A program made the translations under genes and the position numbers. The notes beneath the pieces were generated by a model, which was given only the letters and a program-made list of their open reading frames with translations, did not search any database and had not been told where the DNA came from. Shown here piece by piece: positions 2,672-22,241 of a stretch of 64,000 nt of DNA; position 1 is the first letter of the stretch, and each line of letters starts with the position of its first letter. The DNA is from Bifidobacterium catenulatum PV20-2 (lineage in GTDB: Bacteria > Actinomycetota > Actinomycetes > Actinomycetales > Bifidobacteriaceae), in assembly GCF_000800455.1 (NCBI RefSeq), contig NZ_CP007456.1:1240001-1304000 (forward strand), written 5' to 3'.

Positions 2672-4207
2672 ATGACGGAATCATTCTCCAGCCGGTTGAA
2701 CGTTGCGATGGCGTTCCGCAATGTCAAACAAATTGATTTTGTGCATGCGGCTGAGAAGTTCAATATCAAACTTGGCAAAAGTCATATGAGTCAGTACGTG
2801 AGCGGCAAAACCGTGCCACGTGCCGATATCGCCCATTTCCTTGCGGCTTTTCTGCAGGTCAATGAGGACTGGCTGATGGGAAAGGACGTTCCCATGGAGC
2901 AGAACGCCGTCATCTTGCCTGAAATCGAGTCTGATGAAACCCAACCTGATAGCAATTCTGCATCAGCGCAACCAACAGAAGGAAAGACCATGCGTACCTT
3001 TACGAAATCCCATAAGCTCGACAATGTGCTCTACGACGTTCGTGGTCCGGTGGCGGACGAGGCGGCACGCATGGAAGCAGCGGGAACGCATATTCTGAAA
3101 CTCAATATCGGCAATCCTGCGCCATTCGGGTTCCGGACTCCGGATGAAGTTGTGTATGATATGGCGCAGCAGCTCCCTGAGACCGAAGGATATTCACCGT
3201 CCAAGGGTCTGTTCTCGGCGCGCAAGGCCATCATGCAGTATGCACAGCTCAAGAATATTCCGAACGTCTCCATCGACGATATCTTTACTGGCAATGGCGT
3301 CAGCGAGCTCATCAATCTGTCGCTGTCCGCATTGCTGGACAACGGCGACGAAGTGCTGGTGCCTTCGCCGGACTATCCTCTGTGGACAGCCTGTGTGAAT
3401 TTGGCTGGCGGCACCGCCGTGCATTATATCTGTGATGAGGAATCCGAATGGTATCCCGATATCGACGATATCCGCTCTAAAATCACGGATAAGACCAAGG
3501 CAATTGTCATCATCAATCCAAATAATCCGACCGGAGCGCTTTATCCGAAAGAACTGTTGCAGCAGATTGTCGATATTGCCCGGGAACATCAGCTCATTAT
3601 TTTCTCCGATGAGATTTATGATCGTCTAGTCATGGATGGGTTGGAGCATATTTCCATCGCATCGCTGGCTCCGGACCTGTTCTGTGTGACGTTCTCCGGT
3701 CTGTCGAAGTCGCATATGATTGCCGGATACCGCATTGGATGGATGATACTTTCCGGCAACAAGCGTATTGCAAAGGATTACATCGAGGGCTTGAACATGC
3801 TGGCGAACATGCGTATGTGCTCGAATGTCCCCGCTCAGTCGGTGGTGCAGACCGCTTTGGGTGGGCATCAGAGCGTCAAGGACTACATCAAACCAGGTGG
3901 CCGCGTGTACGAGCAGCGCGAACTGGTCTATCAGATGCTCAATGAAATTCCCGGCGTTACCGCAGTTAAACCGAAAGCGGCGTTCTATATCTTCCCGAAG
4001 CTGGATGTCAAAAAGTTCAATATTCACTCCGATGAGCAGTTCGCATTGGATCTGCTGCATGACAAGCATATTCTGATCAGTCATGGCGGTGCGTTCAATT
4101 GGCAGAATCCAGATCATTTCAGAGTGGTATATCTGCCGCGTATCACGATGCTGAAGGAAACCATAAGTGAGATCGCTGATTTCTTGAGCACATATCATCA
4201 GGCATAA
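2672..4207 (+). CDS. PLP aminotransferase with N-terminal Cro/CI-type HTH domain
   Basis: The 511-residue protein joins two parts. Residues 1-75 form a Cro/CI-like helix-turn-helix (SHMSQYVSGKTVPR, then NEDWLMG, the usual end of such domains). Residues 107-511 are a fold-type I aminotransferase resembling AlaA/AlaT (alanine-pyruvate type). Visible motifs are NPNNPTGAL, SDEIYDRL, the PLP lysine segment FSGLSKSHMIAGYRIGW and a C-terminal FRVVYLPR arginine. The linker at 76-106 is acidic and low in complexity. An internal ATG at 2990 (M107) has its own AGAAGGAAAG ribosome-binding site and could make the enzyme alone. Upstream TTGAACT repeats suggest autoregulation. The substrate is inferred from family resemblance only. 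Confidence 0.88.
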   Translation: MTESFSSRLNVAMAFRNVKQIDFVHAAEKFNIKLGKSHMSQYVSGKTVPRADIAHFLAAFLQVNEDWLMGKDVPMEQNAVILPEIESDETQPDSNSASAQPTEGKTMRTFTKSHKLDNVLYDVRGPVADEAARMEAAGTHILKLNIGNPAPFGFRTPDEVVYDMAQQLPETEGYSPSKGLFSARKAIMQYAQLKNIPNVSIDDIFTGNGVSELINLSLSALLDNGDEVLVPSPDYPLWTACVNLAGGTAVHYICDEESEWYPDIDDIRSKITDKTKAIVIINPNNPTGALYPKELLQQIVDIAREHQLIIFSDEIYDRLVMDGLEHISIASLAPDLFCVTFSGLSKSHMIAGYRIGWMILSGNKRIAKDYIEGLNMLANMRMCSNVPAQSVVQTALGGHQSVKDYIKPGGRVYEQRELVYQMLNEIPGVTAVKPKAAFYIFPKLDVKKFNIHSDEQFALDLLHDKHILISHGGAFNWQNPDHFRVVYLPRITMLKETISEIADFLSTYHQA

Positions 4208-4805
4208 TGGCCTTGGTTGCTCGAAGAACATTCATGGGGTGAAGCGTGCGCAGTATCGCGACACTCCACCCCAAAATATTTATAGTCACATTGACCATAA
4301 ATGGGGTTACGATGGCTCTGGCCTTAGGGTCGAGCAATCGTTCCGTCGTGAATTCGCAACGATCATACCCTCTCTGGGGGTACCGATTTGCTCCTGTCGC
4401 CATCATTGTGATTCGGCAGGAGCCTTTTGTTTTCAACGGGTTGCACCTGCCGGCGATGTGGCGTGCCAGGAGCATCGAGGTCAGCGCTGCCACCAACGAT
4501 GCACCTTTGCCCTCGTTCGTGTTCGTGTCGTCGTTGTTGACGATGTCGTACAGCGTGTCGTCGAGCAGTTCGGCCGGCGGCATGCCCAGGGTGACGGCCG
4601 CGGCCGCGATGGCGTTGAGGTCCCATGCGGCGTCGAGGTTCATTCTGGCCGATATGGTGGCCTTGGTCACGCCGGCCGCCTCGCACAGGGCCTGCTGTTC
4701 GAGTTCTTCCTTGGCCAGGTGCAGGCGCACGTTCCATGCGGCGACCTCACGCAGGTGCTCTCCCAGTTCGACGGCCTGTGTCCTTGCCGTGGTGTTGCCG
4801 GTCAT
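4143..4805 (-). CDS. HTH DNA-binding protein at the left end of the integrative element
   Basis: The N-terminal half is an xre-like DNA-binding region: a long helix, then QALCEAAGVTKATISARMNL, which is the recognition helix area, followed by AAAAVTLGMPPAELLDD. ATG 4805 is chosen because AAAGGA lies five bases upstream; the frame is open further but lacks a start signal. The C-terminal third (after about residue 110) looks unlike protein and runs 65 bases into the antisense of the aminotransferase end. It has probably been replaced by read-through across the element boundary. It faces away from the replication operon at 5060, so it may be that operon's divergent regulator. Confidence 0.6.
   Translation of the reverse strand: MTGNTTARTQAVELGEHLREVAAWNVRLHLAKEELEQQALCEAAGVTKATISARMNLDAAWDLNAIAAAAVTLGMPPAELLDDTLYDIVNNDDTNTNEGKGASLVAALTSMLLARHIAGRCNPLKTKGSCRITMMATGANRYPQRGYDRCEFTTERLLDPKARAIVTPFMVNVTINILGWSVAILRTLHPMNVLRATKAIMPDDMCSRNQRSHLWFPSAS
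4390..4433 (+). terminator. rightward terminator hairpin
   Basis: GCTCCTGTCG (4390-4399) pairs with CGGCAGGAGC (4414-4423) with one mismatch, and TTTTGTTTT follows at 4425-4433. It would stop transcription coming from the aminotransferase. It may be its native terminator or one brought by the element. Confidence 0.65.
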
Positions 4806-11883: not shown

Positions 11884-12789
11884 ATGGGGCGCTTTCGACT
11901 GAAAGGACGGATACGTATGTCAGGTGGGAAGAAGAGCAGGCGCACGATGCTGATGGCTGCCCTGACCGCAGGGGCGTTGGCCTTGGGATATCTGGCGCCA
12001 GCCGCGTTCGCCGAGGGCGGTGGTGGCGGTTCCGGCGGGCAGGTTCCATCGCAGACCGCCGACGCGCATTGGATCTACAAGGATTCCTGGCCCGTCACTC
12101 TGGAGGGCATGAAGCAGGCGATACGTGATTCGGGCACCACCCTGTCTTCCGATTTGGAGGATGGGTCGAATCAGTTCGTGGATATGAATGCCATCCTTGC
12201 CGACGCGATCTCGGAGTGCAAGGCCTCATACACCGGGGAGGGTGACGCGGAATGCCGGATGGTCGCTGTCGGCTACGCGCGCCTCGGCAACGGCGTGTTC
12301 AGCGGTTCCTATGTCAGTTCGAACGCGCGTCAGCGTTGGGAGTCCCAATGGGCCGCCGAAGGGCGCGGCACCTACCAGTACCAAGGCCAGTCGTACACGA
12401 CCGGCACCACGTGGACCGATCGGCTTGGCGTGCGTTCGGTGGATAGCCTGGTGCAGGATTCCATCAACGCCAATCCCGATGCCTCGTTCCGTGTGGTCGT
12501 GCTGGCCAAGAACCAGCCGCCCGTCGATTATCCGTTGACCGTCACCACCTCGCACCGCCAGCAGACCGACATGCAGGTCGGCTCGACCACGCCGGTCGGC
12601 GACACCATCCACGCGAACAACGGCGGCTCGTCGATCAAGGAGACCCTGCACGGCACCGCGATCGTGCACTACGATGGCGGCCCCTACACGCCGACGGGCA
12701 GCGTGAGCAAGCCGATCAGCTTCGCCAACAGCGGCGACACCGTGATCGACAACCTGGCCTCGCCGGGTGATTTCGGCATGGATTCCTAG
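11884..12789 (+). CDS. sortase-type surface adhesin, N-terminal part (gene split by an amber codon)
   Basis: This is the first 301 residues of a large exported protein. A Sec signal peptide is clear: a basic start KKSRR, a hydrophobic core (LMAALTAGALALGYLAPA) and a likely cut after AFA. A glycine-rich spacer follows. GGGAGGG supports ATG 11884; ATG 11917 with GAAAGGA is almost equally good. A TAG at 12787-12789 ends this part, but the frame stays open on the other side and the fold continues (AEGTYWIDIQV). A single C-to-T change in a CAG codon would explain it. In related elements such proteins are the surface adhesins made by the host cell. Confidence 0.75.
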   Translation: MGRFRLKGRIRMSGGKKSRRTMLMAALTAGALALGYLAPAAFAEGGGGGSGGQVPSQTADAHWIYKDSWPVTLEGMKQAIRDSGTTLSSDLEDGSNQFVDMNAILADAISECKASYTGEGDAECRMVAVGYARLGNGVFSGSYVSSNARQRWESQWAAEGRGTYQYQGQSYTTGTTWTDRLGVRSVDSLVQDSINANPDASFRVVVLAKNQPPVDYPLTVTTSHRQQTDMQVGSTTPVGDTIHANNGGSSIKETLHGTAIVHYDGGPYTPTGSVSKPISFANSGDTVIDNLASPGDFGMDS

Positions 12790-12819
12790 GCCGAGGGCAC
12801 ATATTGGATCGACATCCAA

Positions 12820-15800
12820 GTGCCCAGGCAGGGAAGCATGCAGGCGGCCGTGGACACCACGGACCGGGATCCGGCGGAGACCTGGAAGGTCAGCGCCGTG
12901 CCGCCGGCCGATCCGGTCAAAAGCATCGAGGAAGGCGTCAGCGCCGACCGAATGACCAACCGCACCACCATCACGTATGGGACCGGCCGGGGCGGTTACG
13001 AGCTGAGTTTCAGGGACGTGATCGAACCCAACGGCGTCGATTACACGGTGGACGGCTTCACGCTCGTGGACGCCACCGACAACAATCGCGATGTCTCCAA
13101 CGAGTTCGAGATCGGTTGGGACCGCGCATCGAACACGGTCAGCGCGGTCCGTTCGGCCGACAAGGGCATGATGCCGTTCGACCACGAGTATGTGTTCGGC
13201 TTCGATGTGACCGTCAGCCTGCCATCCGATTACCAGAACATCAGCGACCATGCGTGGGGCAAGTGGAACCAGCTGCCCGAGGCCGACGCGGGAGAACGCG
13301 AGTTCGACACCTGGCGTCCCAATCCCGACAAAAGCTGGATCATGCTCGACACTAATGGCAAGTGGCAGGCCGTGATCGACCCCGACCGCACCAACCAGAC
13401 CGGCGGCGACGGCAAGGTGTTCCTCGACGGAGACCGCGTGGCCTCCGTGGTCAACGGCACCGTGCCGGCGAACCTGATCCAGGCTCCGCAGACGCTCACC
13501 TTGGTCGATGATTGGACAGCCGCCGATTACCTGTTCGACGCCGATGAAGCGGCGAACGTCCGAGTGTACGAGGCGGACGCGGGCACCGATCGTGCCAGCA
13601 GCGTGAGCGACATCGCCAACCGTGGCCGTGACATCACCGACCAGTGGGACATCACGATCGATGGCACCGTGGTCACCGCCACGACCAAGGCCTCCTACCT
13701 GACCGGGTTGAAGGACTTGGAGAAGGCCAGGCAGATCACGATGCTCGTGCCCGGCCGCGCGAACTACGCCAACGGGGCCGGGGCGGGCCAGGTGCGCGAT
13801 GACTTCGGCATCGAAGCGGACGACGAGATCACGTTCTGCACCGCCGGCAAGAACGGCGCGGAGCTGACCAACGCCGGCTCGCAGACCATCAACACCCACA
13901 CTGTCGAGACCAACGAGCCGAAGGTCTGCGGTTACGTGCCGCCCGTGGTCAAAGATGTGGTCGGGGAATCCTCCCAAGGCGGCGGCCAGGACAGCGTGGA
14001 CGGCAAGATCGTCTTCCCCGGCCAGCGTCTCGAATACCGTCTGGAGACCCAGCCGCATTTGCCCGACAGTCTTGCCTACACCATTGTCGAGGTGGCGGTC
14101 ACCGACACGTATGACGAGCACTTCCAGCCGGACAAGCAGACCCTGGAGGTCACCGACCTGACCACCGGCAAGTTCATCCCCAAGAGCCAGTACCGCAGCG
14201 AGTGGAACGACGCGAACCATGCCGTGCGTCTCGTGTTCGCCGACGACTATGTGCGGGCGAACTGGCTGGCGGGCACGAATCCCAGAATCATCATCAGATT
14301 CGAGGGCGTCGTGGCCGAAGACGCTCCGGCCGACACCGTGGTTGACAACCAGGGGGCGTTGACCTTGAACAACTCGGTCACACCAAGCAACAAGGTGTGG
14401 AACGATCCGCCCGACTTCCAGCCGGGCAAGGAGGACACCCAGGCCGACCCGTCCATTTCGATCGACGGCAAGACCGCGTTGCTTGGAGACCGCATCTACT
14501 ATCGGATCGACCTCGACGCCAAGCAGACGAACCATGCCTACAAGGTGTGGCGGCTGGGCATGGTCGATGACTGGGACGACGAATACCTCGAACTCGACGA
14601 GAGCCACATCACCGTGACTGACAAGGCCAACGGCAGGGATGTGACCGACCGGTTCAACATCCAGGCCATCGACGGCGTGGCATACGTGTTCGCCAAAACC
14701 GTTGACACCGAGGTTCCGGCGACGGGAGAGACCATCAAGGGCGACCCCCAGCCAGCCGATCTCAAGATCTACGCCGCACTTGGCGACAAGGACCACGACC
14801 CGTTGAAGGACCCGGCCATCGACCAGTCGCTTCTGGGCACCTCGTATGAGGTCACGCTGCCGATGACCGTCATCAAGGTCACCGACGATTACGTGGTCAC
14901 GAACACGGCCACCCAGCTGGTCAACGACGTGCGCAAGGACACCAACCAGGTTTCCAACCCCTTGAAGCCGATCAACCCGGCCAAGGATGTCGTGGTCAAG
15001 GTGGACGGGCAGAGCGTGGATGGCAAGAGCATCTATCTCAACAGCCTGTTCCTCTACCGGCTCGACAGCTCCACGCTGCCGCCCGACCGCGCCTACCCGC
15101 AGGTCTCCGACTGGTCCATCAGCGACCCGCTCGACACCCGGTACGACAAGTTCACCGGCCAATGGGCCGTCTACGCCGCCCGCGACCTCATCAAGGACTG
15201 CGAGACCCTGGCCGAGCGGGGCGAACGCATCGCCGGCTCCGACTTCGACGCCAGCCGTTTCGGCGGAGAACTCTTCGAGCTCGCCACCGACGAGCGCGGC
15301 GTGGTCACCGTGCGTGCCACGGAGCTGATGCTTGGACTCGTGTCGGCCGACACCGAGCATGAGCAGGCGTGGACCGCGTTCATCCAATGCCAGCGCATCG
15401 CCGTGGGCGGTCCCGTGGCCAACCAGTTCACCGAGACCATCAACGGGGTCGAACGGCCCTCGAACACCGTCACCACGCACACGCCCGACATGACGCCCCG
15501 GCTCACCATCGAGAAATGGGACGAGCAATCCGGCTGGCCCGACGGCGACCGTGACACCGTTGACGAGGCGCTGAACATGAACGGGAACGACACTCGCATC
15601 GTGTTCACCATCACCAACGCATCGCCCACCGACCCTGACGCCGGAGACGGCCCTTGGTTCAAGGCGAGCGAGCTGAGCCTCACCGACCAGCTCGTCGCCG
15701 GCGACGGCCAGATCGGCGAGTTCGAGTATCCCGATGACTGGCAGACGCTGATCCTCAAGCCCGGAGACAGCGTGGAGGTCAAGGCCACCCTCAGTGGCGT

Positions 15801-16245
15801 GAGCGAGCATCACACCGACCGCGCCATCGTCACCGGTGTGCCGCTCGTCCAATGCGTCGTCTCCGACCCCGACCCCTTCGACGGCAAAGACGAGGAGAAA
15901 CTGCCCGAGGACGCGGTGGAGATCGACGGGCGAACCCTGTGCGCGGACACCACCGTGACCAGCAACACCGACGACTGGAACGGCTACCAGCCCAAGGACA
16001 ATCTGGCGACCACCGGCACCAACATCGCCGGCCTCATCGCCGTCATCCTCGTCCTCGCGCTCCTCGGCACCGGTGCAACCGCCGCGATCCGCCTCACCCG
16101 CGCCAACGGCCGCCACACCGGGCACGAGAACGACGCGAATGATGATGGCGCTGGCCGTGATGGCAGTCCCAATGGAGATGGCCCCGAGCCGGACTTCGCC
16201 CAACTCGTCACCACTATCAATCCCAAGGAGCCGCCCATGAACTAA
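12820..16245 (+). CDS. sortase-type surface adhesin, C-terminal part (gene split by an amber codon)
   Basis: This continues the previous gene in the same frame (open from 12790; first ATG 12838, other starts weaker). It holds a run of beta-rich extracellular domains. Three related units begin near codons at 13990, 14455 and 15000, each with a GK/GQ-loop and a LxYRL(D/E)-type strand, resembling isopeptide-forming adhesin repeats of the antigen I/II type. At the C-terminus LATTG (16003-16017), a variant LPxTG sorting signal, precedes a membrane helix (IAGLIAVILVLALL) and arginines. An unusually long hydrophilic tail of about 45 residues follows. Without the signal peptide half it cannot be exported unless the amber codon is read through. 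Confidence 0.78.
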   Translation: MPRQGSMQAAVDTTDRDPAETWKVSAVPPADPVKSIEEGVSADRMTNRTTITYGTGRGGYELSFRDVIEPNGVDYTVDGFTLVDATDNNRDVSNEFEIGWDRASNTVSAVRSADKGMMPFDHEYVFGFDVTVSLPSDYQNISDHAWGKWNQLPEADAGEREFDTWRPNPDKSWIMLDTNGKWQAVIDPDRTNQTGGDGKVFLDGDRVASVVNGTVPANLIQAPQTLTLVDDWTAADYLFDADEAANVRVYEADAGTDRASSVSDIANRGRDITDQWDITIDGTVVTATTKASYLTGLKDLEKARQITMLVPGRANYANGAGAGQVRDDFGIEADDEITFCTAGKNGAELTNAGSQTINTHTVETNEPKVCGYVPPVVKDVVGESSQGGGQDSVDGKIVFPGQRLEYRLETQPHLPDSLAYTIVEVAVTDTYDEHFQPDKQTLEVTDLTTGKFIPKSQYRSEWNDANHAVRLVFADDYVRANWLAGTNPRIIIRFEGVVAEDAPADTVVDNQGALTLNNSVTPSNKVWNDPPDFQPGKEDTQADPSISIDGKTALLGDRIYYRIDLDAKQTNHAYKVWRLGMVDDWDDEYLELDESHITVTDKANGRDVTDRFNIQAIDGVAYVFAKTVDTEVPATGETIKGDPQPADLKIYAALGDKDHDPLKDPAIDQSLLGTSYEVTLPMTVIKVTDDYVVTNTATQLVNDVRKDTNQVSNPLKPINPAKDVVVKVDGQSVDGKSIYLNSLFLYRLDSSTLPPDRAYPQVSDWSISDPLDTRYDKFTGQWAVYAARDLIKDCETLAERGERIAGSDFDASRFGGELFELATDERGVVTVRATELMLGLVSADTEHEQAWTAFIQCQRIAVGGPVANQFTETINGVERPSNTVTTHTPDMTPRLTIEKWDEQSGWPDGDRDTVDEALNMNGNDTRIVFTITNASPTDPDAGDGPWFKASELSLTDQLVAGDGQIGEFEYPDDWQTLILKPGDSVEVKATLSGVSEHHTDRAIVTGVPLVQCVVSDPDPFDGKDEEKLPEDAVEIDGRTLCADTTVTSNTDDWNGYQPKDNLATTGTNIAGLIAVILVLALLGTGATAAIRLTRANGRHTGHENDANDDGAGRDGSPNGDGPEPDFAQLVTTINPKEPPMN

Positions 16246-16347
16246 TAACAACCACCCATCTGCTGCTTAGAGCCAACTTTCGTATTCCAGTTGGCAGTTA
16301 GACGGTGATACCATGCAACTGTCCCGGCAAAACGGGGCAGTGCATAC

Positions 16348-16382
16348 TAGGCCCGCAGGCGTAGTCCTGCGGGCCTATTTCG
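16348..16382 (+). terminator. adhesin terminator
   Basis: TAGGCCCGCAGG (16348-16359) pairs perfectly with CCTGCGGGCCTA (16366-16377), with a 6-base loop, then TTTC. It stands about 100 bases after the adhesin stop and 20 bases before the end of the convergent HNH gene. Confidence 0.85.
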
Positions 16383-16399: not shown

Positions 16400-17143
16400 T
16401 TAGCCAACGTTCCCCCATGACAGCGGACTATGATTCGCTGCTTTAAGCACTGGCAAGTGAAACTCGATGCCAGGTTTCTCTCCCCACGGCACTCTAGCTA
16501 AATCGGTTATGTTGCCTGGCCATTCAGGCACCTTATTACTAGAACTGAGATCAAACAAAGTGAAAGCGAATGGCGGTATCCTGATACATGCCATTTTGCA
16601 GCACGTGTAATCCGCAAATATGGGAACCATCCATCCGGTGAACAGCTTTTGTTCACGCAGGTTATCGACTATAAACATATGGAGTCTGTATCGCTGGGGG
16701 AAAACAGTGCTCTCCCTATCCAAGAGATAGTCCTTACAGTCATGCATATCACCAGCTGATACACAGAAGTTCGACATCACCTGCTTCACAAATGCAAGAG
16801 GCATGAGCCTATCTGTCTTGAAATGAATGGATTTATCCCCTTTCTGAAAGTCAGAGACAAGGATTTGCTGTCCAGTTGCACGATAGAACTCACTGAATGG
16901 CTTGACGTAGTTTTGACCAAGATAACTATTGCATGAGCTGCAAATCGTCTTGAATCCTTGACCTCTTTGCAATTGCCGATACTTCAGGCCTTCCATGTCA
17001 TCCTGCCCGGTCAAGCTGCTCTTCACGGCGTCAACGCCTGAATAGAGCTTCACCGTGTGATCATTACCCACAGATTGAGGAGGGATGTGTTCAAAGCTCA
17101 GCGGCCCTTCTTTACCGCAGATTCGGCAAATGTCATCTGCCAT
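16400..17143 (-). CDS. HNH-like nuclease-domain protein
   Basis: The 247-residue protein has a treble-clef HNH layout near the N-terminus: CRICGKEG (a CxxC pair), then FEHIPPQSVGN with the catalytic-type histidine, then CSSCNSYLGQNY (second CxxCN). This places a zinc-stabilised HNH nuclease core in residues 5-85. The remaining 160 residues are unrecognised, with a CC pair near residue 183. It is the second gene of a two-gene minus-strand operon, 19 bases after a three-helix membrane protein. Its composition is clearly AT-richer than the flanking element genes. A role in phage defence is a reasonable guess, not shown. Confidence 0.65.
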   Translation of the reverse strand: MADDICRICGKEGPLSFEHIPPQSVGNDHTVKLYSGVDAVKSSLTGQDDMEGLKYRQLQRGQGFKTICSSCNSYLGQNYVKPFSEFYRATGQQILVSDFQKGDKSIHFKTDRLMPLAFVKQVMSNFCVSAGDMHDCKDYLLDRESTVFPQRYRLHMFIVDNLREQKLFTGWMVPIFADYTCCKMACIRIPPFAFTLFDLSSSNKVPEWPGNITDLARVPWGEKPGIEFHLPVLKAANHSPLSWGNVG

Positions 17144-17162
17144 TTCACGTCATCTCCAAACG

Positions 17163-17579
17163 TTATTGCCACAGGCCGAGGAATGCTGCGGCAATGAAAT
17201 CGAGAAGCGCAGCACCGACCAGAATCAATGCATATAGGTTGAAATAACTGCGCATCAATTTAAGTTTTGCAACATGAAGTTTCTCGTTTGTTGATTCAAA
17301 GTATTCCATCGATCCCGACACGACTTTTTCTATCGCAGGAAAGACCGCGCCAATGATGGCGAGCGACGAAGTCACGAGTGTAGCCTTTGCGCCGTCTTGC
17401 AGAATGGTGAATGAGAGAATCCCCACACCAATAGCTAATCCGATGGCGATGATTGCGTACCATGCTGCTGCTTTCCGAAGGGAGACTCGATCGGCTTCGT
17501 CTAGTTCTTCCCAGTTTGAAGCAGCGCCGAGAGATTGCTTAATCCAAAGATCATTCTGCTGCTGGTCGTTATTTTGCAT
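17163..17579 (-). CDS. three-helix membrane protein paired with HNH gene
   Basis: ATG 17579 begins a 138-residue protein; AAAGGGA lies upstream, and a longer form from 17600 is possible. It has a polar N-terminal segment (about 1-35), membrane helices at about 38-60 and 66-86, a charged amphipathic stretch (EKVVSGSMEYFESTNEKLH), and a third helix at about 113-134. The layout recalls small SLATT-like effector membrane proteins of bacterial conflict systems, which are thought to form pores. No motif proves this. It precedes the HNH gene by 19 bases, so the pair is co-transcribed. Confidence 0.6.
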   Translation of the reverse strand: MQNNDQQQNDLWIKQSLGAASNWEELDEADRVSLRKAAAWYAIIAIGLAIGVGILSFTILQDGAKATLVTSSLAIIGAVFPAIEKVVSGSMEYFESTNEKLHVAKLKLMRSYFNLYALILVGAALLDFIAAAFLGLWQ

Positions 17580-17764: not shown

Positions 17765-17971
17765 GTGGATTTGATGAACCAGGTGCTGGAGTTGTTCGTG
17801 AAGTTCGCGACGATTGGCGGTGGCTTGTGGCTGGTGTGGGGCGCGGTGACATTCGGTGGTGGTTTGAAGGATCATAACGGGCCGCAGACGCAGTCGGGCC
17901 TGTGGCAGATCGTGGGCGGCGGCATGATTATCGCGGCGGCGCAGATCTTCAGCGCCGTGGCGTTGGGCTGA
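17765..17971 (+). CDS. Maff2-family element membrane protein
   Basis: GTG 17765, eight bases after GGAGGA, starts a 68-residue protein. It has two hydrophobic helices (about residues 12-29 and 48-66) around a glycine-rich loop, with the pattern TIGGGLWLVWGAVTFGGGLK and then GLWQIVGGGMII. This matches the Maff2 family of small membrane proteins encoded beside TrbL in integrative conjugative elements. It is thought to belong to the mating channel. Here it survives just upstream of a broken trbL. The DNA before it (17640-17760) has no gene and is probably the scar of the insertion of the HNH pair. Confidence 0.75.
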   Translation: MDLMNQVLELFVKFATIGGGLWLVWGAVTFGGGLKDHNGPQTQSGLWQIVGGGMIIAAAQIFSAVALG

Positions 17972-17999: not shown

Positions 18000-18245
18000 A
18001 TGGAGGATTTCATCGTTGCGATGCTCAACATGATCGGGGCGGTGGCGCCGGTTCGATAGCCACTGGCATGCTGTCGCAGGGGCCGGAGACGTGGAATCCG
18101 GCGCTTTACCAGTTGGCCGTGAACGTGCATGACGTGGCGGTCAAGCCGTTGACCTCGGTGTTTCTGGCGGTGGTGTTTACCTTGGAGTTGGCGCGTAATT
18201 CCACGCGCATCGAGTCCGACCGCGAGTTGGGCGTGAAGATCGTGG
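18000..18245 (+). pseudogene. TrbL/VirB6-type conjugation membrane protein, frameshifted and truncated
   Basis: ATG 18000 opens MEDFIVAMLNMIG, then the frame runs into a TAG at 18057. The neighbouring frame, entered near 18036, reads on as GSIATGMLSQGPETWNP, then VAVKPLTSVFLAVVFTLEL and DRELGVKIVA, the typical N-terminus of element TrbL-like channel proteins. One base is missing in the GGGG stretch. At about 18245 the similarity stops because the DNA changes into antisense parB. Only about 75 of the usual several hundred residues remain, so the gene is dead twice over. Confidence 0.7.
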
Positions 18246-18825
18246 CGAGCCCTTCCTGCAAGTCCGGCCAAGCCTCGTAGTCGGCGATGGTCTCCCAATC
18301 CTCGATGGACAGCTGGGCCGCGCCCACATGTGAGCGCACATCATCGTCGATGGCCGCGACCTTGAGACGGCGGCGCAACAGCGACACCGAACGACCGGTC
18401 TTGCGCGCGGCCTCCTCGACGCTCGACCCCAAGCCCAACAATCCTTGGTAGCCATCGGCTTCCTCGACGACGGTCAGGTCGGTTCGCTGGCTGTTCTCGA
18501 CCAGCATCAGCTCGCGCTGTTCCCGTTCGTCCAGCTCGGCCACGACCGCCGGAACCCGTTCCAATCCCGCCAGTTTCGCGGCCGCCAGCCGCCGATGGCC
18601 GATGACCAGCGTGAACCGTCCCTCCGGCGCGGGCACGACCAGCAGGTTCTGTCGGATGCCTTGGGCGCGGATTGAATCGGCCAGCTCGCCCACATCGCCC
18701 ACGTCGCGGCGGGGATTCGCCGGATTCGGGTCGATAAGCGCCGTTTCGAGCATGACCACCCCGCCGGCGGCTGGCGCAAGGCCGGTGGTTTCATTGATGG
18801 CGGCGATGGTGTTTGCGGTTTCCAT
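18106..18825 (-). CDS. parB: ParB-like nuclease/partition protein, C-terminally truncated
   Basis: The ParB N-domain is intact: LIDPNPANPRRDVGD, then IRAQGIRQNLLVVP, the conserved GHRRLAAAKLAG and the arginine-rich binding box, followed by an HTH (SVEEAARKTGRSVSLLRRRL). ATG 18825 follows AAAGGA. After about residue 193 (near 18245) the sequence stops being ParB-like and is antisense to the trbL stub, so the C-terminal dimerisation part is lost. ParB would bind parS-like sites and work with ParA. It starts the minus-strand group that runs from the right end of the element. Confidence 0.75.
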   Translation of the reverse strand: METANTIAAINETTGLAPAAGGVVMLETALIDPNPANPRRDVGDVGELADSIRAQGIRQNLLVVPAPEGRFTLVIGHRRLAAAKLAGLERVPAVVAELDEREQRELMLVENSQRTDLTVVEEADGYQGLLGLGSSVEEAARKTGRSVSLLRRRLKVAAIDDDVRSHVGAAQLSIEDWETIADYEAWPDLQEGLATIFTPNSRSDSMRVELRANSKVNTTARNTEVNGLTATSCTFTANW

Positions 18826-20685: not shown

Positions 20686-22050
20686 TCAGCTGGCCAGGTT
20701 GAGCTCGTCGATGGCTTGCTTGAAGTCCGCGATCATCCGGGTCAGTTCGCGCACCCTTTGCTCGGTGATATTGACGATGTCTTCCAAACTGTCCGTCGGC
20801 GTTCCCTCCGCATAGGCTTCCTGAAGGAACTCGTCGGCCAGTAGGTTGACGATTTGGCGTTGGTGCTCCGCGACGACGCGCTGGTAATGCTTGATGGCGA
20901 CCTTTTCGCTGGCGTGGCCTAGCTGGTTCATCACCTCGCGTAATGTGCCGCCCTTGAGCATCAGGAGGGTGGCGTGGCTGGCGCGCAGGTCGTGCAACAT
21001 CAGATCGGAGCGTCCTGCCTTCTTGCACGCCCGAGCGAACTGCGCCTCCAGCGTGGTCTGGCTCATGACTTTGACCCTTCTGGGCACGAACACCGGCGAA
21101 GTGGGGTCATCCAGATCGCAGAACGTGTGCAGGTGCTCGCGAATCATATCGACCAAGGCGTCCGGGATGGGAAGGTCCCGGACGCTGCGCCTGGTCTTGG
21201 TCTTGGCGAACCTTGCCTCTCCTCGATCCAGATGTCCCCGGTTGACCGATCTGCGCACACGCAGAACCTTGTTGTCCAGGTCGATGTCACCGACCTGCAG
21301 GCCGCAGAGTTCCCCGCATCGCAATCCGCCGGCAAGCGTGGAGAGGAACACCGTCAGCCGCGTGTAATCCGGCATGTTCTCGGCCAGCACGCGCAGTTGC
21401 TTGGGTGTGACCGGTGGTATGTCCTCCCTTGCGGAATCCGGCTCCGGCGGTATCGGAAAGATGAACGGATTGTCCTTAAGCAATGGCAGGGATCCATCCA
21501 GGCTCATGGTCGTGGCCGAGCGGAACACGGCCTTGAGCCGCATGCAGGCCCGTCGGAACGACCACTGCCCCTCGGGATGCGGGCCGTCATACCAGCTTTT
21601 GATATGTCTGGGCTTGATTTCCGTCAGGCGCAGCCCTTCGAACGCGGGCATGAAATGGGCGATGTCCAGGTACAGGTTGCGTCTGGTTCCTCCGGCTATC
21701 CGTTCGCCGTTGGGCAGCGTGTATTCGGCGGCCCATTGCTCGACATACTCCTTGAACATCATCTGGTTGGCTCGTTCCCGCCTCATGCGGTCACGGGGAT
21801 GAACCCACGTTTGGATGCCTTTGGTATGTAGATCGACCAGATGATGCTCGTTCTCCAACCACACATGAGCCTCGTGCTCCTGATGTGGCTTGAATTGCTT
21901 CTGCACCTTCTTGCCATGATCCACGGGGTTCGGATAACGAACCTGCCATGCGCTGAGGCTACCGGAATCGTCGTATCGGGGAATGACGGTACCCCATTGG
22001 CTACGCGGCTTGGACATGACTTTCCCCACTGGAATGTTAGTTTTTGGCAT
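20686..22050 (-). CDS. int: tyrosine recombinase (integrase)
   Basis: This site-specific recombinase catalyses insertion and excision of the element. All catalytic residues of the tyrosine family are present (numbering from ATG 22050): R244 in GGLRCGELCGL, the beta-hairpin lysine near 283, H353 and R356 in LHDLRASHATLL, H379 in LGHAS and the nucleophile Y389 in KHYQRV. The N-terminal part holds an arm-type and a SAM-like core-binding domain. A coiled C-terminal tail follows. AAGGGAG precedes ATG 22050. It is 454 residues long and appears intact, while nearly everything else in the element is damaged. The attachment site could not be located with confidence. Confidence 0.92.
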   Translation of the reverse strand: MPKTNIPVGKVMSKPRSQWGTVIPRYDDSGSLSAWQVRYPNPVDHGKKVQKQFKPHQEHEAHVWLENEHHLVDLHTKGIQTWVHPRDRMRRERANQMMFKEYVEQWAAEYTLPNGERIAGGTRRNLYLDIAHFMPAFEGLRLTEIKPRHIKSWYDGPHPEGQWSFRRACMRLKAVFRSATTMSLDGSLPLLKDNPFIFPIPPEPDSAREDIPPVTPKQLRVLAENMPDYTRLTVFLSTLAGGLRCGELCGLQVGDIDLDNKVLRVRRSVNRGHLDRGEARFAKTKTRRSVRDLPIPDALVDMIREHLHTFCDLDDPTSPVFVPRRVKVMSQTTLEAQFARACKKAGRSDLMLHDLRASHATLLMLKGGTLREVMNQLGHASEKVAIKHYQRVVAEHQRQIVNLLADEFLQEAYAEGTPTDSLEDIVNITEQRVRELTRMIADFKQAIDELNLAS

Positions 22051-22241
22051 GATTGCTCTCCCTTGAACAAAAAGTGCACCCAAATATGCACTTAAGGGAG
22101 ATTGAAGAAAACCTGCATATGCAGCTCAACACAAGGCGGCAAGTCTGCGCGATTTCGGTACGCGGCTAGAGCGTCCTTGGTTACTTCGGCTACGATAAAG
22201 CCAAGCCTAGGAACCTTGAAATACCGCCCAAGCTAGGGTGT

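Follow-up and report, generated by a model that had tools for sequence, protein, structure and literature searches.

The window is the whole stretch of DNA that was analysed, 64,000 nucleotides of Bifidobacterium catenulatum PV20-2 (contig NZ_CP007456.1, positions 1,240,001 to 1,304,000). Two adjacent genes on its reverse strand, referred to below as the module, lie between an adhesin gene and the remains of a conjugation region. The features in and around the module are as follows, in window coordinates.

12820–16245, plus strand: cell-surface antigen I/II-type adhesin (Antigen_C and AgI_II_C2 by Pfam), the left neighbour
16348–16377, plus strand: terminator-like hairpin with a 12-bp perfect stem, between the adhesin and the module
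16400–17143, minus strand: gene for an HNH_5-type protein of 247 aa (open reading frame call and Pfam)
17163–17579, minus strand: gene for a small membrane protein of 138 aa (open reading frame call, three hydrophobic segments)
17765–17971, plus strand: small protein of 68 aa, kept in related elements, the right neighbour
18012–18262, plus strand: TrbL-like remnant, truncated and frame-shifted (gene named by eye)
20686–22083, minus strand: tyrosine integrase, presumably the element's own

The membrane gene lies upstream of the HNH gene on the same strand, and the gap between them (17144–17162) measured 19 bp, the spacing given in the first-pass annotation; the two genes are probably co-transcribed. 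The open reading frame ending at 17163 has a longest reading of 229 aa from a start at 17852, and the 138-aa protein corresponds to an inner ATG at 17579, a putative start kept from that annotation. Both genes are AT-rich compared with their surroundings, as had also been pointed out, with a GC content of 47.0% for the HNH gene and 47.7% for the membrane gene (GC3 0.52 and 0.49, respectively) versus 64% for the adjoining adhesin gene (GC3 0.87). As judged from their like composition and 19-bp spacing, the membrane gene arrived together with the HNH gene. A 1341-aa open frame runs antisense to the adhesin (12226–16251, minus strand); it is probably artefactual, produced by GC-rich third positions.

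The flanks of the module were then compared across 112 Bifidobacterium genomes, in which the right flank was matched in 36 and the left flank in 50, many of the latter partially. In two related genomes (G424 and G434) about 0.2 kb separates the matched flanks and the module is absent; the insertion is therefore real. The pair had been described as inserted between the adhesin and conjugation channel genes, and the insertion part of this description stands, whereas the channel genes turned out to be a remnant: the TrbL-like frame matches a relative over residues 14–88 of 281 only, with its first residues in another frame, and a ParB-like frame on the opposite strand comes next. The 68-aa right neighbour had no Pfam match and is linked to conjugation by its position. 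No direct repeats were found around the module. In B. catenulatum subsp. kashiwanohense (L006), about 860 bp are missing just past the conjugation remnant.

Other elements hold sugar-use genes at the same junction, which is therefore a general, variable cargo spot. Cargo intervals were compared using 15 further genomes chosen from among the flank matches, and 15 of 15 intervals (the query counted in) shared a common stretch of 8.6–9 kb with genes identified by eye as beta-galactosidase and sugar genes. The intervals are longer, about 15–16 kb, in some of the Bifidobacterium elements compared (L056–L073 in all, the two empty sites included), and one of the longer ones (L061) also carries ABC-transporter-like and two-component-like genes by eye. 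The idea that the site is a shared hotspot collecting defence genes was rejected, given the metabolic stretch common to all 15 intervals. The module itself is cargo of a decayed integrative element.

Pfam HNH_5 (PF14279) matched the HNH protein with an E value of 9.2e-8 and 32.3 bits against a cut-off of 27.5. The model spans the N-terminal part only, and shares with it the layout CxxC ... EH ... P ... CxxCN ... G. The residues of this zinc/HNH part read C6xxC9, H19-I-P-P and C68xxC71N72xxxG76. An alignment of 12 sequences including distant relatives showed C6, C9, H19, P21, G61, C68, C71, N72, G76 and G170 to be invariant, and C6, C9, H19, C68, C71 and N72 were likewise invariant in a second set of seven sequences. 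The original reading of the protein as HNH-like is thus upheld by the family model and by residues conserved in distant homologues. When 10 relatives were scanned, a single one, the 38% identical protein of genome G478, exceeded the HNH_5 cut-off, eight fell below it and one had no match, which places the family at the edge of the model.

Folding of the HNH protein from its single sequence gave a mean pLDDT of 34, and AlphaFold2 with the seven sequences gave a mean pLDDT of 73.9 and a pTM of 0.80. In the latter model, residues 21–60 of the N-terminal part have a pLDDT of 58–64, a long helix spans residues 69–96, and the conserved C-terminal part (approximately residues 105–235) is helical and beta-rich. 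Foldseek comparison of the model with the PDB returned nothing at E ≤ 0.001 (best E 0.15). HNH proteins were absent from the best 50 of its 482 matches, and since the N-terminal HNH part thus also went unmatched there, the result does not establish a new fold. A search of PADLOC-DB 2.0.0 with E values up to 10 found no family matching either the HNH protein or the membrane protein.

The membrane protein, previously described as having three helices, has three hydrophobic segments at residues 42–60, 66–84 and 118–136. The profile search proposed for both proteins produced HNH_5 for the HNH protein and nothing above the Pfam cut-off for the membrane protein, which also matched no PDB sequence at E < 0.2. 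NCBIfam SLATT_4 (NF033632) aligned with residues 33–83 at an E value of 0.15, and a SLATT reading is not supported: the score of 11.9 bits falls short of the 55-bit cut-off, and hhalign gave a probability of 0.6% with a set of six Bifidobacterium SLATT_4 sequences, one of them a fragment and with a near copy left out. SLATT_4 genes above the cut-off occur in 7 of the 112 genus genomes, and the window's protein is not among them. DUF4231 was rejected too, being above its cut-off in one of the 112 genomes and not in the window's protein; one report (PMC10799925) mentions DUF4231 and HNH domains on either side of an anti-CRISPR gene. In G478, a membrane protein encoded at a distance of 1.1 kb from the HNH relative is not related to the one in the window.

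To see who carries the pair, genomes, plasmids and phages were searched with both proteins. The membrane protein was found in three of the 112 Bifidobacterium genomes, in the same three of 189 family genomes, and in one of 336 genomes of the phylum, namely the window's own; no plasmid record, no phage record and no confirmed viral contig in the searched sets carried it. The HNH protein was found in five of the 112 genus genomes. The window's genome and G431 carry it intact; in G413, where the membrane gene is intact, a one-base deletion splits it; G478 has a solitary relative with 38% identity, and G448 a C-terminal remnant. A class sample of 394 genomes added no further carrier. All three carriers of the membrane gene thus hold the HNH gene as well, intact or broken, and near-identical stretches are found in Bifidobacterium sp. 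N4G05 and B. catenulatum subsp. kashiwanohense JCM 15439. Identity among the three carriers is 98–99% across the aligned region and 99.7% within the module, and they therefore represent one event.

The HNH protein has a much wider distribution than this lineage, with distant relatives in 18 plasmid records from several phyla (Actinomycetota, Bacillota, Cyanobacteriota and Pseudomonadota), in one Oenococcus phage (two records), where the gene lies in a replication module, in 8 of 396 phylum genomes (the window's among them), and on seven viral contigs; viral contigs queried with the Lactiplantibacillus plantarum HNH protein alone gave no confirmed relative. The plasmid relatives have the same motifs and are 22–32% identical to the window's protein, with a query coverage of at least 80% in 6 of the 18 records. 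Unlike the window's protein, they are without a membrane partner in the 16 records opened; an example is WP_211758655.1 of L. plantarum, annotated as a hypothetical protein.

A uniform count of same-strand open reading frames of at least 60 aa with at least two hydrophobic segments near the HNH gene was made at 32 loci, after reading 16 of the 18 plasmid records, one of the two phage records, seven other phylum loci and seven viral loci. The membrane gene was present at 19 bp in the window and in L005, and none of the 30 other loci had such a frame within 200 bp, the number of independent loci being below 30 because of near copies (L008/L096/L097, L090/L094 and L092/L093). At 3 of the 30 a multi-helix frame lay at 208–279 bp (L085, 405 aa; L086, 87 aa; L090, where it is antisense to an integrase-like gene), and we judged all three to be unrelated or spurious. 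The contig of L091 starts at the HNH gene, leaving its upstream side outside the count, and L007 shows 264 bp. With no such frame counted within 200 bp at the 30 loci, the HNH family, whose members sit on plasmids and prophages, is solitary as a rule. The first-pass annotation had proposed a two-gene system and co-occurrence of the pair in other genomes as its check; in the sets searched the two genes were found together in one lineage only, and no conserved pairing emerged, an outcome that the annotation itself had listed as a refutation. The membrane gene is a lineage-specific neighbour and no constant part of an HNH system.

Some of the HNH relatives lie in neighbourhoods with mobile or defence-like genes. 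An integrase adjoins the relative in L007 by annotation and in L090, L093 and L095 by eye, and in L090 the relative sits between lysin-like and integrase-like genes, also by eye. The relative in L084 adjoins a type IIG enzyme, that in L098 adjoins both a type II enzyme and a PDC-S50 protein, and that in L008 a PD-T4-7-like protein; type I restriction-modification (R-M) genes are near the relatives in L012 and L100, and a TIR protein in L091. Other relatives stand among ordinary genes (L010 and L102). In L084 the relative (3474–4262) starts in the final codons of the type IIG restriction enzyme-methyltransferase gene, with an overlap of 17 bp. The neighbours named in L084, L098 and L008 and the TIR protein of L091 belong to a set of ten proteins hand-picked as promising, of which five matched PADLOC at E ≤ 0.001.

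A same-plasmid control was set up with the annotated genes within about 4 kb of the HNH gene at 12 of the 16 plasmid loci read, the control regions lying half a plasmid away in ten cases and where space allowed in two. At E ≤ 1e-15, the 72 neighbours matched 179 PADLOC models (25 of them listed, per set rather than per protein) and the 92 controls matched 10, counts that are inflated by one R-M protein matching many models and that come from asymmetric sets, the HNH set including four edge-cut genes (two of these encode a cytosine methyltransferase and a helicase) and the control set excluding cut genes. R-M genes were near about 4 of the 12 HNH loci and 0 of the 12 control regions (one-sided Fisher p 0.047, uncorrected), with complete genes in L098 and L100, a cut annotated gene in L009 and, in L011, a cut gene whose type III match was attributed by hand; absence from the control regions was by annotation, cut genes included. 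The control regions also matched defence models (DpdF, PDC-M68A, SAVED_HNH/Effector and mad8). Because one R-M protein matches many models and cut genes were treated asymmetrically, the control is weak, and it favours defence-like neighbourhoods in a suggestive way only.

Taken as a whole, we consider the core of the module to be one gene, a solitary, probably restriction-like nuclease of HNH_5 type carried as cargo by a decayed Bifidobacterium integrative element, and assign this reading a probability of about 0.5. The zinc/HNH signature, the conserved C-terminal part, the mobile distribution and the AT-rich insertion in a variable spot were observed, and the nuclease activity, the target and any anti-phage effect are inferred. 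The N-terminal part would cut DNA, and the C-terminal part would recognize a target or trigger, for example modified or incoming DNA; the enzyme would then act as a one-protein restriction factor, shielding element and host from phages or competing elements. Since the HNH gene usually stands alone and the membrane gene belongs to a single lineage, the HNH gene is probably a one-gene accessory, perhaps an anti-phage one, rather than a proven two-gene system. Of the initial proposal of a phage-defence system made of a nuclease and a membrane protein, the HNH reading survives, together with the defence-like or mobile surroundings of some relatives, but not the conserved pair; as the pairing does not generalize, the two-gene claim matters less. 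If the one-gene restriction factor is real, it would represent a scattered family with plasmid relatives in four phyla and a C-terminal part lacking a PDB match at E ≤ 0.001, whose member in the window is missed by PADLOC-DB 2.0.0. Among the titles listed by our literature searches, none dealt with the HNH/membrane pair or with the HNH family.

The same solitary, scattered occurrence on mobile DNA would suit a homing or otherwise selfish free-standing HNH endonuclease with no protective role, HNH being a usual homing fold. Frequent decay points the same way (the frameshift in G413, the remnant in G448, and stops in G606 and G512), but the long conserved C-terminal part does not, and no conserved insertion target was seen, the neighbours varying across nearly all loci read, near copies apart. 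We regard this explanation as possible, though rather unlikely.

Somewhat less likely again is a true two-gene system, in which the membrane protein would tether or restrain the HNH protein at the membrane so that it cuts entering DNA, like SNIPE. SNIPE is a single chain with both a transmembrane part and a GIY-YIG nuclease, and offers a precedent in that tethering of a nuclease can give self/non-self discrimination (PMC13190303). With Pfam and the structural model as the basis, no membrane segment is predicted in the window's HNH chain itself; an anchor could be the neighbouring protein, which is not conserved. The membrane-bound SNIPE (DUF4041 plus GIY-YIG) and the module share the concept of pairing a nuclease with a membrane component; SNIPE differs in its nuclease fold and its single chain, and the word HNH is absent from the PMC13190303 text. 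The same strand, the 19-bp gap, the like foreign composition and the presence of the HNH gene, intact or broken, in 3 of 3 membrane-gene carriers would fit such a system, but none of the other 30 HNH loci shows a multi-helix membrane frame within 200 bp, and one carrier keeps an intact membrane gene beside a broken HNH gene. A more specific version is doubtful: a two-protein HNH counterpart of SNIPE, with a small membrane partner gained in this lineage that would tether the HNH protein, a defence nuclease in this version, to the envelope, where phage or plasmid DNA would be cut on entry, and with a recognition domain that has no PDB fold match.

A toxin with a membrane-bound immunity protein, or another pairing with the membrane protein as antidote or effector, is improbable: the operon-like layout agrees with it, and G413, which keeps the membrane gene without an intact HNH gene, fits an antidote, but the relatives read have neither a membrane partner nor any other constant neighbour. 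Least probable is that both are passenger genes of a decaying element with no present function, as the truncated conjugation region and the HNH frameshift in one of three carriers might suggest, against both frames being intact in two carriers and the HNH signature being complete.

In three Lactiplantibacillus plasmids (L008, L096 and L097), the HNH relative is found downstream of a fimbrial, isopeptide-forming surface protein. This surface-protein neighbour parallels the position of the window's HNH gene beside the adhesin, perhaps by chance.
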